Source of the DNA: a bacterium | Lineage (GTDB): Bacteria; DYJV01; JALVYZ01 | Assembly: GCA_027037705.1 (NCBI GenBank) | Contig: JALVYZ010000251.1 | Span: 1-10,680, forward strand | Direction: 5' to 3' | Length of the DNA: 10,680 nt | Shown here: one piece after another, positions 4,504 to 10,680 of the stretch | Position numbering within the stretch: the stretch's first letter is position 1 | Layout of the letters: the number at the start of each line of letters is the position of its first letter | Position numbers and translations under genes: made by a program | The notes under the pieces: model-generated | The model's input: only the letters and a program-made list of their open reading frames with translations | What the model was told of the DNA's origin: nothing | The model's database searches: none

Positions 4504-4986
4504 TTATGGAATTGAATAAGAAAGGTCTAAATGAGGTTGTTCTTTCTTTTTATTAAAATCTAATTCATACTTAATAGGGTAATCATTTTCATATAAAATT
4601 ACTTGTTTCCCAATTTTTTTCTCAAGGTTTATAATAATAGGTGCTTTTAGATTCAATGAAAATTTTTTCTCTTCATTATTTATTGTTACTATAGAAAATA
4701 CAAAGACATCTTTTCCAAACTTTGAAGAATTTTCTATTTCAAGGATATATAAATCTCCATCACTTAATTTAAAATTATAATCTGGTAAAAATATAAAAGG
4801 ATTTGTCAAAATAAACATTAAATTCTCTACTTCTATTGAATGTAAAAAATAAAAATATGGGATATTCTTTTTACTTAAGATGACATATCTTTTAAATTTA
4901 TCAAATCCAGGAATTCCAAATGGAAAATAAACTACATTTGTTGGATTATATTCAATTTCTCCAAATCTTGATGAAAAAAACTTCAT
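4504..4986 (-). CDS. fliW: FliW, flagellar assembly factor and CsrA antagonist
   Basis: FliW binds CsrA and relieves its repression of translation (flagellin in Bacillus subtilis). It is itself sequestered by flagellin, so it couples flagellin secretion to synthesis. Family motifs are FGIPGF (23-28), LHSIEVENLMFI (48-59), TNPFIFLPDY (61-70), NLKAPIIIN (112-120) and QVILYENDYPI (128-138). The 160-residue length is at the long end; the last 16 residues after ELDF are Lys/Pro-rich and look like a lineage-specific tail. It starts 12 nt after csrA, and its Shine-Dalgarno AAGGAG overlaps the csrA stop (TAAGGAG), so the two partners should be made from one message in linked amounts. The order csrA-fliW is the reverse of that in Bacillus. 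Confidence 0.95.
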   Translation of the reverse strand: MKFFSSRFGEIEYNPTNVVYFPFGIPGFDKFKRYVILSKKNIPYFYFLHSIEVENLMFILTNPFIFLPDYNFKLSDGDLYILEIENSSKFGKDVFVFSIVTINNEEKKFSLNLKAPIIINLEKKIGKQVILYENDYPIKYELDFNKKKEQPHLDLSYSIP

Positions 4987-4998
4987 TTATTTAACTCC

Positions 4999-5214
4999 TT
5001 ACAAATTTTCAAGTTTTTCTATTTCAAAATCAATTTTTGCAGCTTCGATATTTTGATTTTTTATTTTTAAAAATATTTCTTCTCTGTAAACTGGGATATT
5101 TTCAGGTGCTTCTATCGCAATTTTAACATTATTTCTTTTTATTGAAAGAATTTGAATTTTTATATTTTCATTAATAATAATTGATTCACCAGCTTTTCTT
5201 GTTAAAATTAACAT
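4999..5214 (-). CDS. csrA: CsrA/RsmA post-transcriptional regulator
   Basis: CsrA is a small dimeric RNA-binding protein that recognises GGA in hairpin loops or leaders and usually blocks ribosome access. The 71 residues begin [14 protein letters not shown] and contain [15 protein letters not shown] (34-48). Both RNA-contacting regions known from CsrA are present: Leu4 in the first strand and Arg44 in VYREE. The C-terminal tail after the fifth strand (about 50-71) is charged and a little longer than in E. coli CsrA (61 residues), as is common in species that use FliW, which binds near the C-terminal part. It lies 9 nt after flgL; the Shine-Dalgarno AAAGGA overlaps the flgL TAA. That site holds a GGA, which would allow autoregulation, but this is only a possibility. 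Confidence 0.97.
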
Positions 5215-6349: not shown

Positions 6350-8893
6350 CTAAATTGTATTTATAATATGTTCTGTTAATTTATCTATTACTGATATTAA
6401 TTTAGAACTTGCAATGTAAGCATGCTGAGTCTGTATAAGTTTAGTCATTTCTTCATCAATAGAAACTCCGCTTATACTATTTCTCTGTTGTTTTAATCCT
6501 TCCTCCCTGATTTTTGTTGCATCTAATCTGTTAGACATATAATTTTTGTCAATCCCTATTTTGGTTAAGAGAAGTGAATAACTGTCTGTTATGCTATTTA
6601 CACCATTATCCATTACTTTTTCATCTCTTAAATTTGATATTTTAAGGGCAATTCTATTATCTCCATTAGAATAATCAAGTAAATTGCTGCTTACTTTAAT
6701 AAGGTCACCATTGTTTGTTGATGAATTAAAATTAATTCTAATTCCCTGAAATTCAACAAAATTTGCGCCTTGCGCAGTTGGTGTTATATTATTTCCCTGT
6801 TCGTCGGTAATTTGATATGTTCCTCCTCCTAATGCAATAATATTAAAGTTTGTTCTTGTTAATAGATTAAAATTCGTTACTTCAATATTATGTATAGAAG
6901 TGGAAGATTGAGAATCATCAACTTCTATTGAATTGACTTTTCCTGCATTAATTGATTTTACATCATTTTCATTAAAATTAGTATCAATATATTTTGCTCC
7001 AACTATTTTAGGTTTGATCTCTATTGTTCCAAAGCTATTATTTGCTATTGTTATTGTTAGACCAGTGCTTTTAATTTTTATACCTTTAAAGTCAATAACA
7101 CCATCATTATCAACATCTATATCTGAGACTTGAAATTCATTATCCATTAAAGTCCTATTATTATCAAGGTCTGTTATGGATATGCTGTTGTCTCCCTGGC
7201 TAAAATCAATTCTATATGTATGATTGTCTACTAAATTATCATCATAAATGCTTGAAGAATTAATTGTATTAATATGAAATTTATTATTTCCAGTCCAAGA
7301 TGAATTATCTAATTGTAGTTTAATTCCGTCAAACTTAATAGTTAAATGATTATCTACAACATCTATTTTATATTTACTTTTGTCTAATGTTTCTCCAGTA
7401 AATAAATCTTTTATTGTTAGATTTCCACTATTATATTCAATTTCATATTCATGGCCAGTTAGTTGAGATTTATCATAATAACCTGTAAATATTAAATGAT
7501 CTGAATTAGTTTGCTCTTCAGTAGCTACAATATTAACAGATGGAGAAAGATCATATTTTTTTTCATGGAAAAATGTATTTATACCTAATCCACTTAAAAG
7601 TCCTGTGTTGTCATCTGCAAAAGCAAATTTAAAACCTTCATCTGCAGAAATATGTAATTTATTATTGATTATTGAAGCATGAAGATGATTTATATTATTT
7701 ATTTCGTTCATAAATTCTTTTAAGTTATTTATATCATTATCCATTAAAGGATTATTAGATTCTGGATCCCCAATCACTAAATTTTTATATTCAACAGGAT
7801 TTCCATTCGCATCATAAACTACAATGCTTAAATTCCCCTGTTGAACTGCGTTGCTAAGCCCACTATAATTAAATGATAAATCTGGATTATTAACTCTTAC
7901 ATTTGATATTATCTGTTGGAATGGTTCTAAACCAATCCCTTGAGAAAAAATTTTGTTAACTTCAGTAATTAAAGAATTGGCAATTTGACCAAGTTTATTT
8001 TTGTAAAAACCTATATAATTATCTCTAACATCAACTAATCCCTTTAATTCTCCACTCTTTAGTTCTGTAGTAATGTCTTCTTTTTTGCCACTACTACTAA
8101 TCCAATAAATTTTATAAAAAGAATTATCAATGGAGCCTGGTTCTACTTTAAGAGAGTTTGCGACTGTTCCATTAACTAAAGTTTTTCCATTTCCAGTGTA
8201 AATAATATATTTGTTGTCTTCTTCTATATATTTAATATTTATATATTTTGATAATTCTTTTACAAGGGTATCTCTTCTATCTCTTAAATCATTAGCATTA
8301 TTTTGAGGATTTACTTCAATATTAAAAATTTCCTGATTCAGTTTTGCAATCTCTTTTGTAATATCATTTATTTTATCCACAGTATCTGAGATATCTAAAT
8401 CTATCATCTTTTGGACTTTTTCTAATTCATTATCAGTATAATGGAAAATAGAAGATAAATTTACTGCTTTTTCAATTACTGCATTTCTTTCTGGTGTTGA
8501 TGATGGATTATTTGAAAGCTCATACCAAGCATTCCAGAATTCATTTAATTTGTCACCAAGACCACTGTTTTTTAAATCATTAAAAATAGATTCAATATTC
8601 TTTAAATATTTATTGGAAATTTCATATTGTCCTAATTCACTTAAGTTTGAAGTAATATTCATTTCTAAAAATTTGTCTATAAGGCGAGTAACTTCTTTTA
8701 CATTTACACCTGTACCAATTGAGCCAGGAGAAATCTCTTTTATTGGAGGATTTGTATCGACTAAAACACTTTTTTTTGTATAATTTTCATTATCTGCATT
8801 TGCTATATTTTGGCCAATTACATTGATTCTATACTGATTTAAAAAAAGTGAGGATTTTGCTATTTGTAGAGCATTATCAAGGCCAATAGCCAT
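6350..8893 (-). CDS. flgK: Flagellar hook-associated protein 1 (FlgK), enlarged central domain
   Basis: FlgK forms the hook-proximal junction ring. The 847 residues are longer than the usual 450-650. The N-terminal part is canonical: GLDNALQIAKSSLFLNQ, INVIGQNIANADNENYTKK (24-41), GTGVNVKEVTRLID (60-73), the coiled helices to about residue 220 with NDLRDRRDTLVKEL (201-214). So is the C-terminal part: NGDNRIALKISNLRD (743-757) and SGVSIDEEMTKLIQTQHAY (808-826). GLGINTFF (435-442) is normally followed within tens of residues by the GDN motif; here nearly 300 residues intervene, containing three related β-rich units (see the repeat entry). The composition is rich in Asn, Asp and Ser, with no frame break. 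The ATG is preceded by AAGGAG inside an inverted repeat; the 50-nt gap to flgN also holds a σ54-like element. FlgN, its chaperone, is encoded directly upstream. Confidence 0.95.
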   Translation of the reverse strand: MAIGLDNALQIAKSSLFLNQYRINVIGQNIANADNENYTKKSVLVDTNPPIKEISPGSIGTGVNVKEVTRLIDKFLEMNITSNLSELGQYEISNKYLKNIESIFNDLKNSGLGDKLNEFWNAWYELSNNPSSTPERNAVIEKAVNLSSIFHYTDNELEKVQKMIDLDISDTVDKINDITKEIAKLNQEIFNIEVNPQNNANDLRDRRDTLVKELSKYINIKYIEEDNKYIIYTGNGKTLVNGTVANSLKVEPGSIDNSFYKIYWISSSGKKEDITTELKSGELKGLVDVRDNYIGFYKNKLGQIANSLITEVNKIFSQGIGLEPFQQIISNVRVNNPDLSFNYSGLSNAVQQGNLSIVVYDANGNPVEYKNLVIGDPESNNPLMDNDINNLKEFMNEINNINHLHASIINNKLHISADEGFKFAFADDNTGLLSGLGINTFFHEKKYDLSPSVNIVATEEQTNSDHLIFTGYYDKSQLTGHEYEIEYNSGNLTIKDLFTGETLDKSKYKIDVVDNHLTIKFDGIKLQLDNSSWTGNNKFHINTINSSSIYDDNLVDNHTYRIDFSQGDNSISITDLDNNRTLMDNEFQVSDIDVDNDGVIDFKGIKIKSTGLTITIANNSFGTIEIKPKIVGAKYIDTNFNENDVKSINAGKVNSIEVDDSQSSTSIHNIEVTNFNLLTRTNFNIIALGGGTYQITDEQGNNITPTAQGANFVEFQGIRINFNSSTNNGDLIKVSSNLLDYSNGDNRIALKISNLRDEKVMDNGVNSITDSYSLLLTKIGIDKNYMSNRLDATKIREEGLKQQRNSISGVSIDEEMTKLIQTQHAYIASSKLISVIDKLTEHIINTI
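6692..7453 (-). repeat. Three degenerate β-rich protein repeats within FlgK
   Basis: The encoded FlgK segment 481-734 contains three units that share the pattern 'aromatic-x-I ... TD/KD ... hydrophobic F-x-GI-x-I'. They start at HEYEIEY (481; core FDGIKLQL 521-528), HTYRIDF (558; core FKGIKIKS 602-609) and TNFNIIA (681; core FQGIRINF 715-722). The units are about 55-70 residues and differ at most positions, so the repeat is visible in protein, not DNA. They probably form extra outward-facing domains (D2/D3 level) of the junction ring. The middle unit carries DVDNDG (593-598), similar to a calcium-binding loop. Repeat borders are approximate. Confidence 0.65.
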
Positions 8894-8897
8894 TTTA

Positions 8898-8924
8898 TTC
8901 TCCTTTTTTACTGTTTAAGGAGAA
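8898..8924 (-). promoter_or_regulatory. Inverted repeat masking the flgK Shine-Dalgarno
   Basis: The minus strand has TTCTCCTT (8924-8917), an 11-nt A-rich loop, and the perfect complement AAGGAGAA (8905-8898), which contains the flgK ribosome binding site and ends 4 nt before the ATG. An 8-bp stem with no U-tract behind it is not a terminator. If folded it would hide the Shine-Dalgarno on any message that starts upstream of about 8924. The repeat is seen directly; the regulatory effect is inferred. Confidence 0.6.
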
Positions 8925-8927
8925 AAA

Positions 8928-8943
8928 AGCAATATCTATGCCG
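8928..8943 (-). promoter_or_regulatory. Candidate σ54 promoter upstream of flgK
   Basis: Directly after the flgN stop the minus strand reads CGGCAT-AGATA-TTGCT. Compared with TGGCAY-N5-TTGCW it differs only at the first base. The invariant GG (8942-8941) and GC (8930-8929) are exactly 10 nt apart. Initiation would be expected near 8917, giving a leader of about 24 nt before flgK. σ54 drives hook and junction genes in several flagellated lineages, but whether this organism has RpoN and an activator cannot be seen. A chance match is possible. Confidence 0.4.
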
Positions 8944-9459
8944 TTAAATTTTTCCTGTATATAATGAAGTTGTAGATGGTGTATATGATTTTTTAACAAT
9001 TTTACCATAATTTGAATATGTAGATGGGTATAGATTTTGGTTCACTATATTTAATGATTTTTCTATGAATGAAAGGGATGTTTCTATCACAAATTTATTT
9101 ATTTCATTTAAATTTTTTATTTTAAAACCAATTTCTTTAAATTTTTCTTTAAAATTTTCATAAATTTTTTTATTTTTAGGTTCAGAGATACTTGCAAGAA
9201 ATGAAAGATTAAAGTTATCATAATCGAGATTAAAGTTATTACATAACTCTTTTATAAAATTGTTTCTTCTATTTTTTATTTCAAAGATATTTAGTAAAAT
9301 ACCTTCTTTTTGTAAATTTATGTCTGATAGTGAATCATATTTAAAATCTGATAGATATTTCCTTTCTAAAATCAATATATCTTTAAGTTCCAGATATAGG
9401 TTATACTCTTTTTCTAAAAGGCTGATCATTTTTTTATGGTATTCTTCAGGTATTTTCAT
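8944..9459 (-). CDS. flgN: FlgN, export chaperone for FlgK and FlgL
   Basis: FlgN is a small helical cytosolic chaperone that binds the C-terminal ends of FlgK and FlgL and delivers them to the flagellar export gate. The 171-residue protein is almost wholly helical by composition. The first helix is LLEKEYNLYLELKDILILERKYL (14-36), where FlgN proteins typically have E...Y..L..IL..E...L. The C-terminal helix has NKFVIETSLSFIEKSLNIV (121-139), followed by a polar Tyr/Ser/Thr tail with YGKI (151-154). Sequence identity in this family is low, so the call rests on this pattern, the length and the position between flgM and flgK. It starts 9 nt after flgM, with the Shine-Dalgarno AGGAG overlapping the flgM stop (TAGGAG), which suggests coupled translation of FlgM and FlgN. 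Confidence 0.88.
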   Translation of the reverse strand: MKIPEEYHKKMISLLEKEYNLYLELKDILILERKYLSDFKYDSLSDINLQKEGILLNIFEIKNRRNNFIKELCNNFNLDYDNFNLSFLASISEPKNKKIYENFKEKFKEIGFKIKNLNEINKFVIETSLSFIEKSLNIVNQNLYPSTYSNYGKIVKKSYTPSTTSLYTGKI

Positions 9460-9468
9460 ATTTTTCTC

Positions 9469-9768
9469 CTATTTATAAAAATTTCCAAAAATTAAATCCT
9501 CCACAATTTTATCTGCAAGTTTATGTACATCAATATTGTAATTTCCAGATTTTATCATTTCTTTTAATTTTTCAATTTTTTCTGTTCTGTTTTCTGGGTA
9601 GTCAAGGATATCTATAACCAATTTTTCAGCCTCTTTTAATGTATCGGAAAAATTTACCTTATCTGAAGAGGAATTTACTTTTTTTTCTTCAGGTCTAATT
9701 TTCTTTTTGACCTTTTCGTTATCTTCTAAAACTTTTTTGATTCCTGTGTCTATGTCTTGAATTTTCAT
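9469..9768 (-). CDS. flgM: FlgM, anti-σ28 (FliA) factor
   Basis: FlgM binds and holds σ28 inactive until the hook is finished and FlgM itself is secreted. The 99-residue length is typical. The N-terminal half is charged and probably disordered (lysine-rich to about residue 38), as expected for an exported flexible protein. The C-terminal half carries the σ28-binding region: LVIDILDYPENRTEKIEKL (50-68), then KEMIKSGNYNIDVHKLADKI (69-88), matching the family pattern R.EK...LK..I..G.Y.(I/V)D...(L/I)A.K(I/M). The ATG is chosen because AGGAGG (9780-9775) lies 6 nt upstream. It is the first gene behind a perfect σ28 promoter, so σ28 would raise its own inhibitor, as in Salmonella. Upstream read-through from flgJ is also possible. 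Confidence 0.94.
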   Translation of the reverse strand: MKIQDIDTGIKKVLEDNEKVKKKIRPEEKKVNSSSDKVNFSDTLKEAEKLVIDILDYPENRTEKIEKLKEMIKSGNYNIDVHKLADKIVEDLIFGNFYK

Positions 9769-9776
9769 ACCAAACC

Positions 9777-9817
9777 TCCTGCCTTTTTATAATCCTTCAA
9801 TCTTGTTATCGGCAGGA
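9777..9817 (-). promoter_or_regulatory. Inverted repeat masking the flgM Shine-Dalgarno
   Basis: The minus strand has TCCTGCC (9817-9811) and its perfect complement GGCAGGA (9783-9777), with 27 nt between. The right arm covers four bases of the Shine-Dalgarno AGGAGG (9780-9775). The left arm overlaps the −10 element of the σ28 promoter, so it can be present only in transcripts that start further upstream. A competing stem AATCCT (9819-9814) with AGGATT (9796-9791) uses the same left arm and would free the Shine-Dalgarno. The repeats are seen; folding and effect are inferred. Confidence 0.5.
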
Positions 9818-9832
9818 TTTTTTAAAACTTTA
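9806..9832 (-). promoter_or_regulatory. σ28 (FliA) promoter of flgM
   Basis: TAAAGTTT (9832-9825), an 11-nt spacer, and GCCGATAA (9813-9806) on the minus strand match the enterobacterial σ28 consensus at all 16 positions with the correct spacing. Initiation is expected about 6-8 nt beyond the −10, near 9800, giving a leader of about 30 nt before the flgM ATG. It should drive flgM, flgN and, by read-through, flgK, flgL, csrA and fliW, placing them in the late flagellar class. Confidence 0.92.
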
Positions 9833-9847
9833 ATTTACTAATGTCAA
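9819..9847 (-). promoter_or_regulatory. Possible σ70-type promoter overlapping the σ28 site
   Basis: TTGACA (9847-9842) starts three bases after the flgJ stop and is followed after 17 nt by TAAAAA (9824-9819), four of six matches to TATAAT. If active, it would overlap the σ28 −35 box, so the two polymerases would compete. Its transcript would start near 9812, inside the left arm of the inverted repeat, so it is unlikely to carry the whole arm. The −10 is weak in AT-rich DNA, so this is only a candidate. Confidence 0.3.
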
Positions 9848-9850
9848 ATT

Positions 9851-10153
9851 TTATTTTTCAAACTGTTTTAAATAATTGTATAATAAATCAGATATCCCTA
9901 ATGATTGTCCTTTTACAGCCTCCTTTGTTAATGCATTATAATACATATATTCATAAATTTTTTTTGCATTTGATTCAGGAAAAAGTGAATTCCCTGGTGA
10001 AGCTTTTCTAAGTTCCTCTAAAACCATATCCAAAAAATAAGCTTCAAAATCTCTACATGCATCTTTTAACTTTTTGTCATTTTTTGTTTTTAATTCTTGT
10101 TCAATATTTTTGCTATTTAAATTTTTTATTAAAATATCACCTTTATTTATCAT
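9851..10153 (-). CDS. flgJ: Rod-binding protein, FlgJ N-terminal-domain type
   Basis: The 100-residue protein corresponds to the N-terminal rod-capping/rod-binding domain of FlgJ, which helps assemble the flagellar rod in the periplasm. It lacks the peptidoglycan-hydrolase domain of the two-domain FlgJ, so another enzyme must open the wall. Motifs: KLKDACRDFEAYFLDMVLEE (28-47), where the family has A..FE..FL..ML..(L/M), then SNAKKIYEYMYYNALTKEA (61-79) and SLGISDLLYNYL (84-95), the usual G.G.A..L ending. The start ATG at 10153 has GAGGG four bases upstream and lies 11 nt after flgI, the gene order seen in many flagellar operons (flgI-flgJ-flgM). The call is firm as to domain; the symbol flgJ applies in the single-domain sense. 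Confidence 0.9.
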   Translation of the reverse strand: MINKGDILIKNLNSKNIEQELKTKNDKKLKDACRDFEAYFLDMVLEELRKASPGNSLFPESNAKKIYEYMYYNALTKEAVKGQSLGISDLLYNYLKQFEK

Positions 10154-10164
10154 TATACCCTCAT

Positions 10165-10680
10165 TTACATTATTATTAAATCTGCTTGTAAAGCCCCAGC
10201 TTCTTTAATTGCCTGCAATATTGATATTAAATCACGAGGTGTAACTCCTATTCTATTTAATCCTCTAACTAAATCTCTAATTGTAGGAGAGTTCTTAATT
10301 ACCATTAATCTTGCTTTTTCCTCTTTTACTTTAATATTTGTATTTGCTGTTGCAACTGTTTTCCCAGCAGAGAAAGGATTTGGTTGGCTAACTTTTGGAG
10401 TTTCCTTAATAACAATACTAAGATTTCCATGTGCTACTGCAACTGTGCTTACCTTTACATTTTCACCAATCACTATTGTTCCAGTTCTTTCATTAATAAC
10501 TATTCTCGCTTTTATATCAGGAGTTACATCTATATCTTCTATTTTTGATATGAATCTTACTATATTTTCATTTTCAGGAACTTTAACTTCCAAGGTTGCT
10601 CCATCAATTGGATTTGCCAAATTTTTATGTAAATAGAAATTAATAGTATCAGCCATTTTTTGGCATGTTTTAAAGTCTGG
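10165..10680 (-). CDS. flgI: Flagellar P-ring protein FlgI, C-terminal half
   Basis: FlgI builds the periplasmic P-ring around the rod, a bushing found in Gram-negative flagella. The frame is open through the right edge, so only about 171 of the usual 350-370 residues are here. The ATG at 10656 is an internal methionine: upstream codons to the edge read PDFKTCQK, which fits the family's PDF(T/S)TA..(I/M)A motif running straight into MADTIN. Seen after that: RIVINERTGTIVIGENVKVS, VAVAHGNLSIVI, TIRDLVRGLNRIGVTPRDLI and the canonical ending LQAIKEAGALQADLII. The N-terminal signal peptide and first domain lie outside the window. It presumably heads, or sits within, the operon that continues into flgJ. 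Confidence 0.95.
   Translation of the reverse strand, partial: PDFKTCQKMADTINFYLHKNLANPIDGATLEVKVPENENIVRFISKIEDIDVTPDIKARIVINERTGTIVIGENVKVSTVAVAHGNLSIVIKETPKVSQPNPFSAGKTVATANTNIKVKEEKARLMVIKNSPTIRDLVRGLNRIGVTPRDLISILQAIKEAGALQADLIIM

Follow-up and report, generated by a model that had tools for sequence, protein, structure and literature searches.

A σ28 promoter of flgM that may double as an anti-Shine-Dalgarno arm in read-through RNA, with covarying arms in a distant family

The window, that is, the whole stretch of 10,680 nucleotides that was analysed, carries on its minus strand a flagellar block comprising flgI (cut by the contig end), a flgJ-type rod-binding gene, flgM, flgN, flgK, flgL, csrA and fliW, with four of these genes assigned through Pfam. 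The flgJ-type gene (9851..10153; PF10135), which encodes 100 aa, closes the upstream unit, the one from which RNA would run on into flgM. It is followed by the gene for the anti-σ28 factor, flgM (9469..9768; PF04316, 49.8 bits), the export chaperone gene flgN (8944..9459; PF05130) and the gene for the hook-filament junction protein, flgK (6350..8893; PF22638 and PF06429), with csrA and fliW located at 4504-5214. The FlgJ of the window consists of the short rod-binding domain only; in G261 (L106), a genome from outside the window's phylum, the rod-binding gene seems to form a fusion with a peptidase-like domain. The longest gaps in the flagellar block are those preceding flgM (82 nt) and flgK (50 nt). 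As the first-pass annotation had claimed, both of them hold a perfect inverted repeat on the Shine-Dalgarno (SD) sequence, with the 5' arm situated at or upstream of the expected local start, where a locally started RNA would lack it. The genome encodes FliA (216 bits) and RpoN (451 bits), both above the cut-off, and the same two σ factors are encoded by G001, the only other genome of the phylum that was compared, which belongs to another family of the same order and was reached through family and phylum searches.

In the leader of flgM, a pattern search has located a σ28 promoter of exact consensus, TAAAGTTT-N11-GCCGATAA (9806..9832, minus strand), a box that is also found in G001. The 5', anti-SD arm TCCTGCC (9811..9817, minus strand) overlaps the spacer and the -10 element of this promoter, its GCC falling within the -10, and the 3' arm GGCAGGA (9777..9783, minus strand) overlaps the SD AGGAGG (9775-9780), with which it is placed in the predicted fold. 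According to the sequence coordinates, the arms form seven perfect pairs around a 27 nt loop, a stem length that was reached in 0.08% of shuffled leaders in which the promoter cores, the SD and the ATG were held fixed (p 0.0008). As the arm lies within the promoter, an RNA started there would be without it wherever the exact start falls, and the arm is thus, by geometry, absent from the RNA of the proximal flgM promoter, whose start is a predicted one. Folding of the two leaders predicts that the SD is paired at 0.85 (37 °C) and 0.69 (60 °C) in read-through RNA, compared with 0.17 (37 °C) and 0.15 (60 °C) in local RNA, so that in the model the flgM SD would be closed in the long RNA and open in the short one. 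The earlier proposal that local RNA is free and read-through RNA masked is consistent with these predictions in the case of flgM.

For read-through to occur, the unit upstream of flgM has to be transcribed into it. A search of the genome with the σ54 pattern GGCA-N6-TTGCW gave 22 matches against 1 for the reversed control, and several of the sites immediately precede genes, flgF and flgH among them. G001 shows the whole run flgF-flgG-flgA-flgI-flgJ-flgM-flgN-flgK-flgL, with a σ54 box ahead of flgF; such a box precedes flgF in the window genome as well, where contigs end and the join from flgF to flgI falls outside the view. A scan of positions 8800-10200 revealed no terminator-like site on the coding (minus) strand from flgJ to flgK, ruling out an intrinsic terminator there, given that no GC-rich stem with a T run was present. 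A known RNA family was likewise ruled out, with 0 Rfam matches in the window. Taken together, the σ54 box before flgF and the lack of a terminator between flgJ and flgK make read-through into flgM likely.

How unusual such stems are has been assessed against a background of 111 SD-led genes in sampled parts of the window genome, only five of which have a stem of at least six pairs on the SD. Within this background flgK ranks first and flgM third in stem length, and the order is reversed for the duplex energy of upstream-SD pairing, where flgM ranks first and flgK third; as both genes had been preselected from the window by the first-pass annotation, these ranks and the shuffle p values are somewhat optimistic. 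The flgM of G001 ranks second of 123 sampled genes, its stem length being reached in 0.53% of shuffled leaders. Stems on the SD are hence uncommon, not unique, occurring with at least six pairs in 3-5% of genes. This background frequency is one of the points in favour of coincidence, which holds that a σ28 -10 (CCGATAA preceded by pyrimidines) is inherently complementary in part to an SD (GGAGG), so that a few long stems without function will arise. Foreign promoters also lower the accessibility of the SD: when whole leaders were folded with swapped σ28 promoters, 12% of the foreign ones masked the SD of the window equally well, a figure that rises to 45% for the SD of the G001 flgM.

A wider survey of flgM in genomes across the domain points in the same direction. 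A σ28-like box was found within 200 nt in 69 of 111 flgM genes, and for 50 leaders with a close box the pairing between own promoter and SD exceeded that of swapped combinations (p=0.002; 0.009 without the window's own phylum), an excess that is weak after GC adjustment (z -1.7; -1.1 without the own phylum). An arm as a universal property of flgM has been ruled out on this basis, and family f268, which came from the same search for relatives as the family f208 described below, has no arm design at flgM; the window flgM is the most extreme case of all. Against coincidence, on the other hand, stand the σ28 promoters of fliD and flaG in the window genome, which have no comparable perfect arm. The same is true of fliD in G001, and a general property of σ28 promoters has therefore been ruled out. 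The fliD of the window genome adjoins a divergent gene, for which reason read-through is not expected there. In a first σ28 survey, the strongest promoter-SD pair was found in G298 (L070, around 1500-1560), where a σ28-like box before a 107-aa gene of unknown function pairs with the SD of that gene at -20 kcal/mol (TTTTCCCTTTT with AAAGGGGAAAA) and a possible terminator is located just upstream.

Conservation in G001 is a second argument against coincidence. The flgM leader of this relative has kept both the σ28 box and the arm (TCCTGCCGATAA and GCAGGAGG; TCCTGC:GCAGGA), even though the FlgM proteins are only 52% identical between the two genomes. Since the arms of G001 and the window are identical, this constitutes conservation and not covariation within the phylum. 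A second flgM of G001 (L205 / G001:C87:43300-46000) is preceded by a different σ28-like box, GACGATAA, and lacks a masking arm, an indication of a second set of flagellar genes. The G001 leader also bears on the view that these leaders are controlled by CsrA and not by the promoter of origin of the RNA. Control of flagellar RNAs by CsrA and FliW is known (PMC4894983) and counts for that view, as do the presence of csrA and fliW in the flagellar block (4504-5214) and the two GGA motifs (AAGGATT and CAGGAGG) in the local flgM leader. In the masked form, however, the GGA of the SD lies in a stem and not in a loop, the short G001 leader has the GGA of its SD alone, and the co-adapted arms of family f208 are left unexplained, making control by CsrA highly improbable as an account of the repeat.

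The family f208 came to attention through G261, whose flgM leader was one of few to form a long stem. This genome has the gene order flgI-flgJ-flgM-flgN-flgK of the window, and its σ28-like box, TTAA-N15-TCCGATAT, holds ATCCTCC, the complement of its SD GGAGGAT. In the same genome (L338:14386-14677), a perfect stem of nine pairs, TCTCCTTTC:GAAAGGAGA, lies over the SD of a small gene and is unrelated to flgM. The addition of 23 further leaders brought the family set to 24, and in most of these genomes the arm is located within the -10 and spacer of the flgM σ28 promoter. The arms differ among members: TAAATCCTCC:GGAGGATTTA in G386, ATCCTCC:GGGGGAT with a G-U pair in G403, CCG[TA]TCCTCC:GGAGGACGG in G400 and G409, CTG[CA]TCCTCC:GGAGGACAG in G413, CAT[A]CCTCCG:CGGAGG[G]ATG in G402 and ACTAAT[A]CTCC:GGAGGTTAGT in G414. 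The CCG:CGG of G400 and G409 has become CTG:CAG in G413, which represents a compensatory change. Across the family, the mean predicted accessibility of the SD is 0.10 in read-through RNA as opposed to 0.73 in local RNA.

Exchanging arms among the 24 leaders has shown that they are co-adapted. Own arm-SD duplexes have a mean energy of -11.4 kcal/mol compared with -9.7 kcal/mol for swapped ones (p<5e-5, also when GC-adjusted), and neighbouring control segments gave p values of 0.03 to 0.14. The difference persists when the genus of discovery is left out (p=6e-5), when one genome is taken per genus (median p=0.003) and when the -10 is removed and the spacer alone is swapped (p=8e-5). No other σ28 promoter was found in the 400 kb of G261 that were read; the co-adaptation of the spacer is independent of whether CCTCC belongs to the usual -10 of this lineage. 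When the leaders were aligned without gaps, with the -10 and the SD and not the structure as anchors, the covariation score amounted to 0.250, compared with 0.08-0.13 for slid partners, and was reached by 1 of 500 shuffles. The arm of the window pairs poorly with the SDs of f208 (mean -7.7, compared with -15.3 for its own). The first-pass annotation had pointed to compensatory changes in relatives as a sign of function, and in f208 the alignments indicate that pairing of the flgM arms has been kept through changes on both sides. Taking into account that the f208 arms are co-adapted with as well as without the -10, that the arm is conserved in G001 and that fliD and flaG are without one, coincidence is an improbable explanation for the flgM repeat.

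The f208 leaders have a further regularity: flgJ ends with a stop codon inside the -35 (GGTTAA) of the flgM σ28 promoter (L286-L325). The distances from this shared site to the masking arm and the -10 are nearly constant, with 11-13 nt between stop and arm in 20 of the 24 leaders. This arrangement bears on an account in which translation is coupled: the hairpin would close flgM in read-through RNA unless ribosomes ending flgJ open it, and FlgM made from the long RNA would follow the translation of FlgJ. With a stop codon in the -35, 11-13 nt before the arm, a terminating ribosome would be within reach of the hairpin in these 20 leaders. The fixed 11 nt in f208 may, however, merely reflect the overlap of the stop codon with the -35. 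In the window the arm begins 33 nt past the flgJ stop codon, and in G001 the distance is about 30 nt. Distances of 30-33 nt are beyond the footprint of a terminating ribosome, and the spacing in the window thus argues for a plain lock, with coupling seeming unlikely.

The situation is different in the leader of flgK. A genome pattern search has located a σ54-type box, GGCATAGATATTGCT (8928..8942, minus strand; also delimited as GGCATAGATATTGC, 8942-8929), followed by a 5' arm, TTCTCCTT (8917..8924, minus strand), the +1 being expected near 8917, and by a 3' arm with the SD, AAGGAGAA (8898..8905, minus strand). The coordinates give eight perfect pairs, a stem length reached in 0.16% of shuffled leaders with fixed promoter cores, SD and ATG (p 0.0016). 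The flgK SD is predicted to be paired at 0.99 in read-through RNA; contrary to the earlier proposal, the local RNA would be partly closed too, with the SD paired at 0.66. Neither the σ54 box nor the arm is present in the flgK leader of G001, the only phylum relative compared. The hook-filament junction genes have their σ54 box ahead of flgL in G001 (L100:9735-9748) and ahead of flgK in the window. The other σ54 leaders of the window genome, those of flgF, flgH and fabG, have no arm, and the arm as a general property of σ54 promoters has been ruled out accordingly.

A lock on flgK is possible, with a weak case and with support from outside the window genome absent. Since the upstream promoter proposed before flgF is of the σ54 type, as is the local one, read-through and local RNA would mark no different stages, and a lock on flgK would set its dose relative to the flgMN RNA and not the stage. 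It is somewhat likely that the flgK repeat either arose by chance, where the T-rich start region of a σ54 promoter meets an A-rich SD, or sets the dose of FlgK relative to the flgMN RNA. The absence of the repeat in G001, where the σ54 box precedes flgL, the armless flgF, flgH and fabG leaders and the partly closed local leader in the model are in agreement with this account, and the constrained-shuffle p of 0.0016 and the longest SD stem among the 111 sampled genes count against it. The idea of one design common to both leaders, put forward in the first-pass annotation, is not supported, in view of the missing box and arm in G001, the partly closed local leader and the σ54 type of both promoters. 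Its suggestion that both proteins would be made at the correct assembly stage would not follow for flgK, the proposed upstream promoter being σ54 as well; for flgM it stands if reworded as production when σ28 is active, a matter of negative feedback and not simply of lateness.

For flgM, it is quite probable that the repeat acts as a translation lock on read-through RNA, with the σ28 promoter supplying one of the two arms. A σ54 promoter before flgF would drive the upstream unit of rod and ring genes, flgF-flgG-flgA-flgI-flgJ, and its RNA would read on into flgM, carrying the spacer and -10 of the flgM promoter as RNA. In this read-through RNA, TCCTGCC would pair with GGCAGGA and close the SD, and RNA started by σ28, beginning after the -10, would have no arm and an open SD. 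FlgM from the window locus would thereby come mainly from σ28-started RNA, giving a tight negative feedback from σ28 to FlgM, and the early operon RNA would be kept from making this brake protein of flagellum assembly. The sequences directly show the geometry of the leader, its conservation in one relative and the co-adapted arms of a distant family, f208, with this gene order; we infer the start sites at flgM, the existence of the read-through RNA and its poor translation. FlgM is needed also before hook completion, and the lock is therefore probably partial. The interpretation is well supported as a hypothesis and is strengthened by an independent lineage, f208. A broader formulation, for which the chances seem evenly balanced, is that in several lineages with the order flgI-flgJ-flgM-flgN-flgK the flgM σ28 promoter doubles as an anti-SD arm, constituting a recurrent, selected checkpoint device in which an anti-σ factor is translated only from RNA of the σ factor that it inhibits.

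If the proposed lock is true, a translational layer would be added to the best-known bacterial assembly checkpoint, with FlgM made only when σ28 is active and not from early operon RNA, and a single DNA element would be under two constraints, as promoter and as pairing RNA. The leaders illustrate how the same bases can serve in a promoter and in a regulatory arm of an RNA, and they provide a search rule for other temporal cascades, namely to look for arms within promoters that serve operon-internal genes.

Among the open-access papers searched, none was found to describe an SD lock embedded in the promoter of a flagellar gene. In Salmonella and E. coli, flgM is transcribed from an upstream class 2 promoter as well as from its own σ28 promoter (PMC8527033, PMC5809477), and control of its translation has been reported to proceed via FlgN, Flk or the small RNAs OmrA/B; unlike that of the window, the E. 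coli flgM leader has no promoter-embedded anti-SD arm. SD masking in read-through RNA had been mentioned in the first-pass annotation as known for some phage and bacterial genes, which agrees with the literature, where it is described for phage T4 and proposed for Bacillus subtilis, both of them close precedents. For the B. subtilis sigG gene (spoIIIG), read-through RNA from the spoIIG promoter has been suggested to be kept from translation by a hairpin that RNA started at the sigG promoter itself is unable to form (PMC5942855). That hairpin is very large, with 20+ pairs, and belongs to the gene of a sporulation σ factor, whereas the flgM kind has 6-10 pairs and precedes a flagellar anti-σ gene. 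In phage T4, late genes present on early and middle RNAs (I-TevI, segB, e and soc) have an SD that is masked by a hairpin forming solely when transcription began at promoters further upstream, and the late promoter is sited so that its own RNA is without the 5' arm (PMC2988022). T4 differs from the flgM case in that phage genes and late transcription are involved, while in flgM the leader belongs to an anti-σ gene under the very σ factor that it inhibits, with the arm lying partly in the -10.
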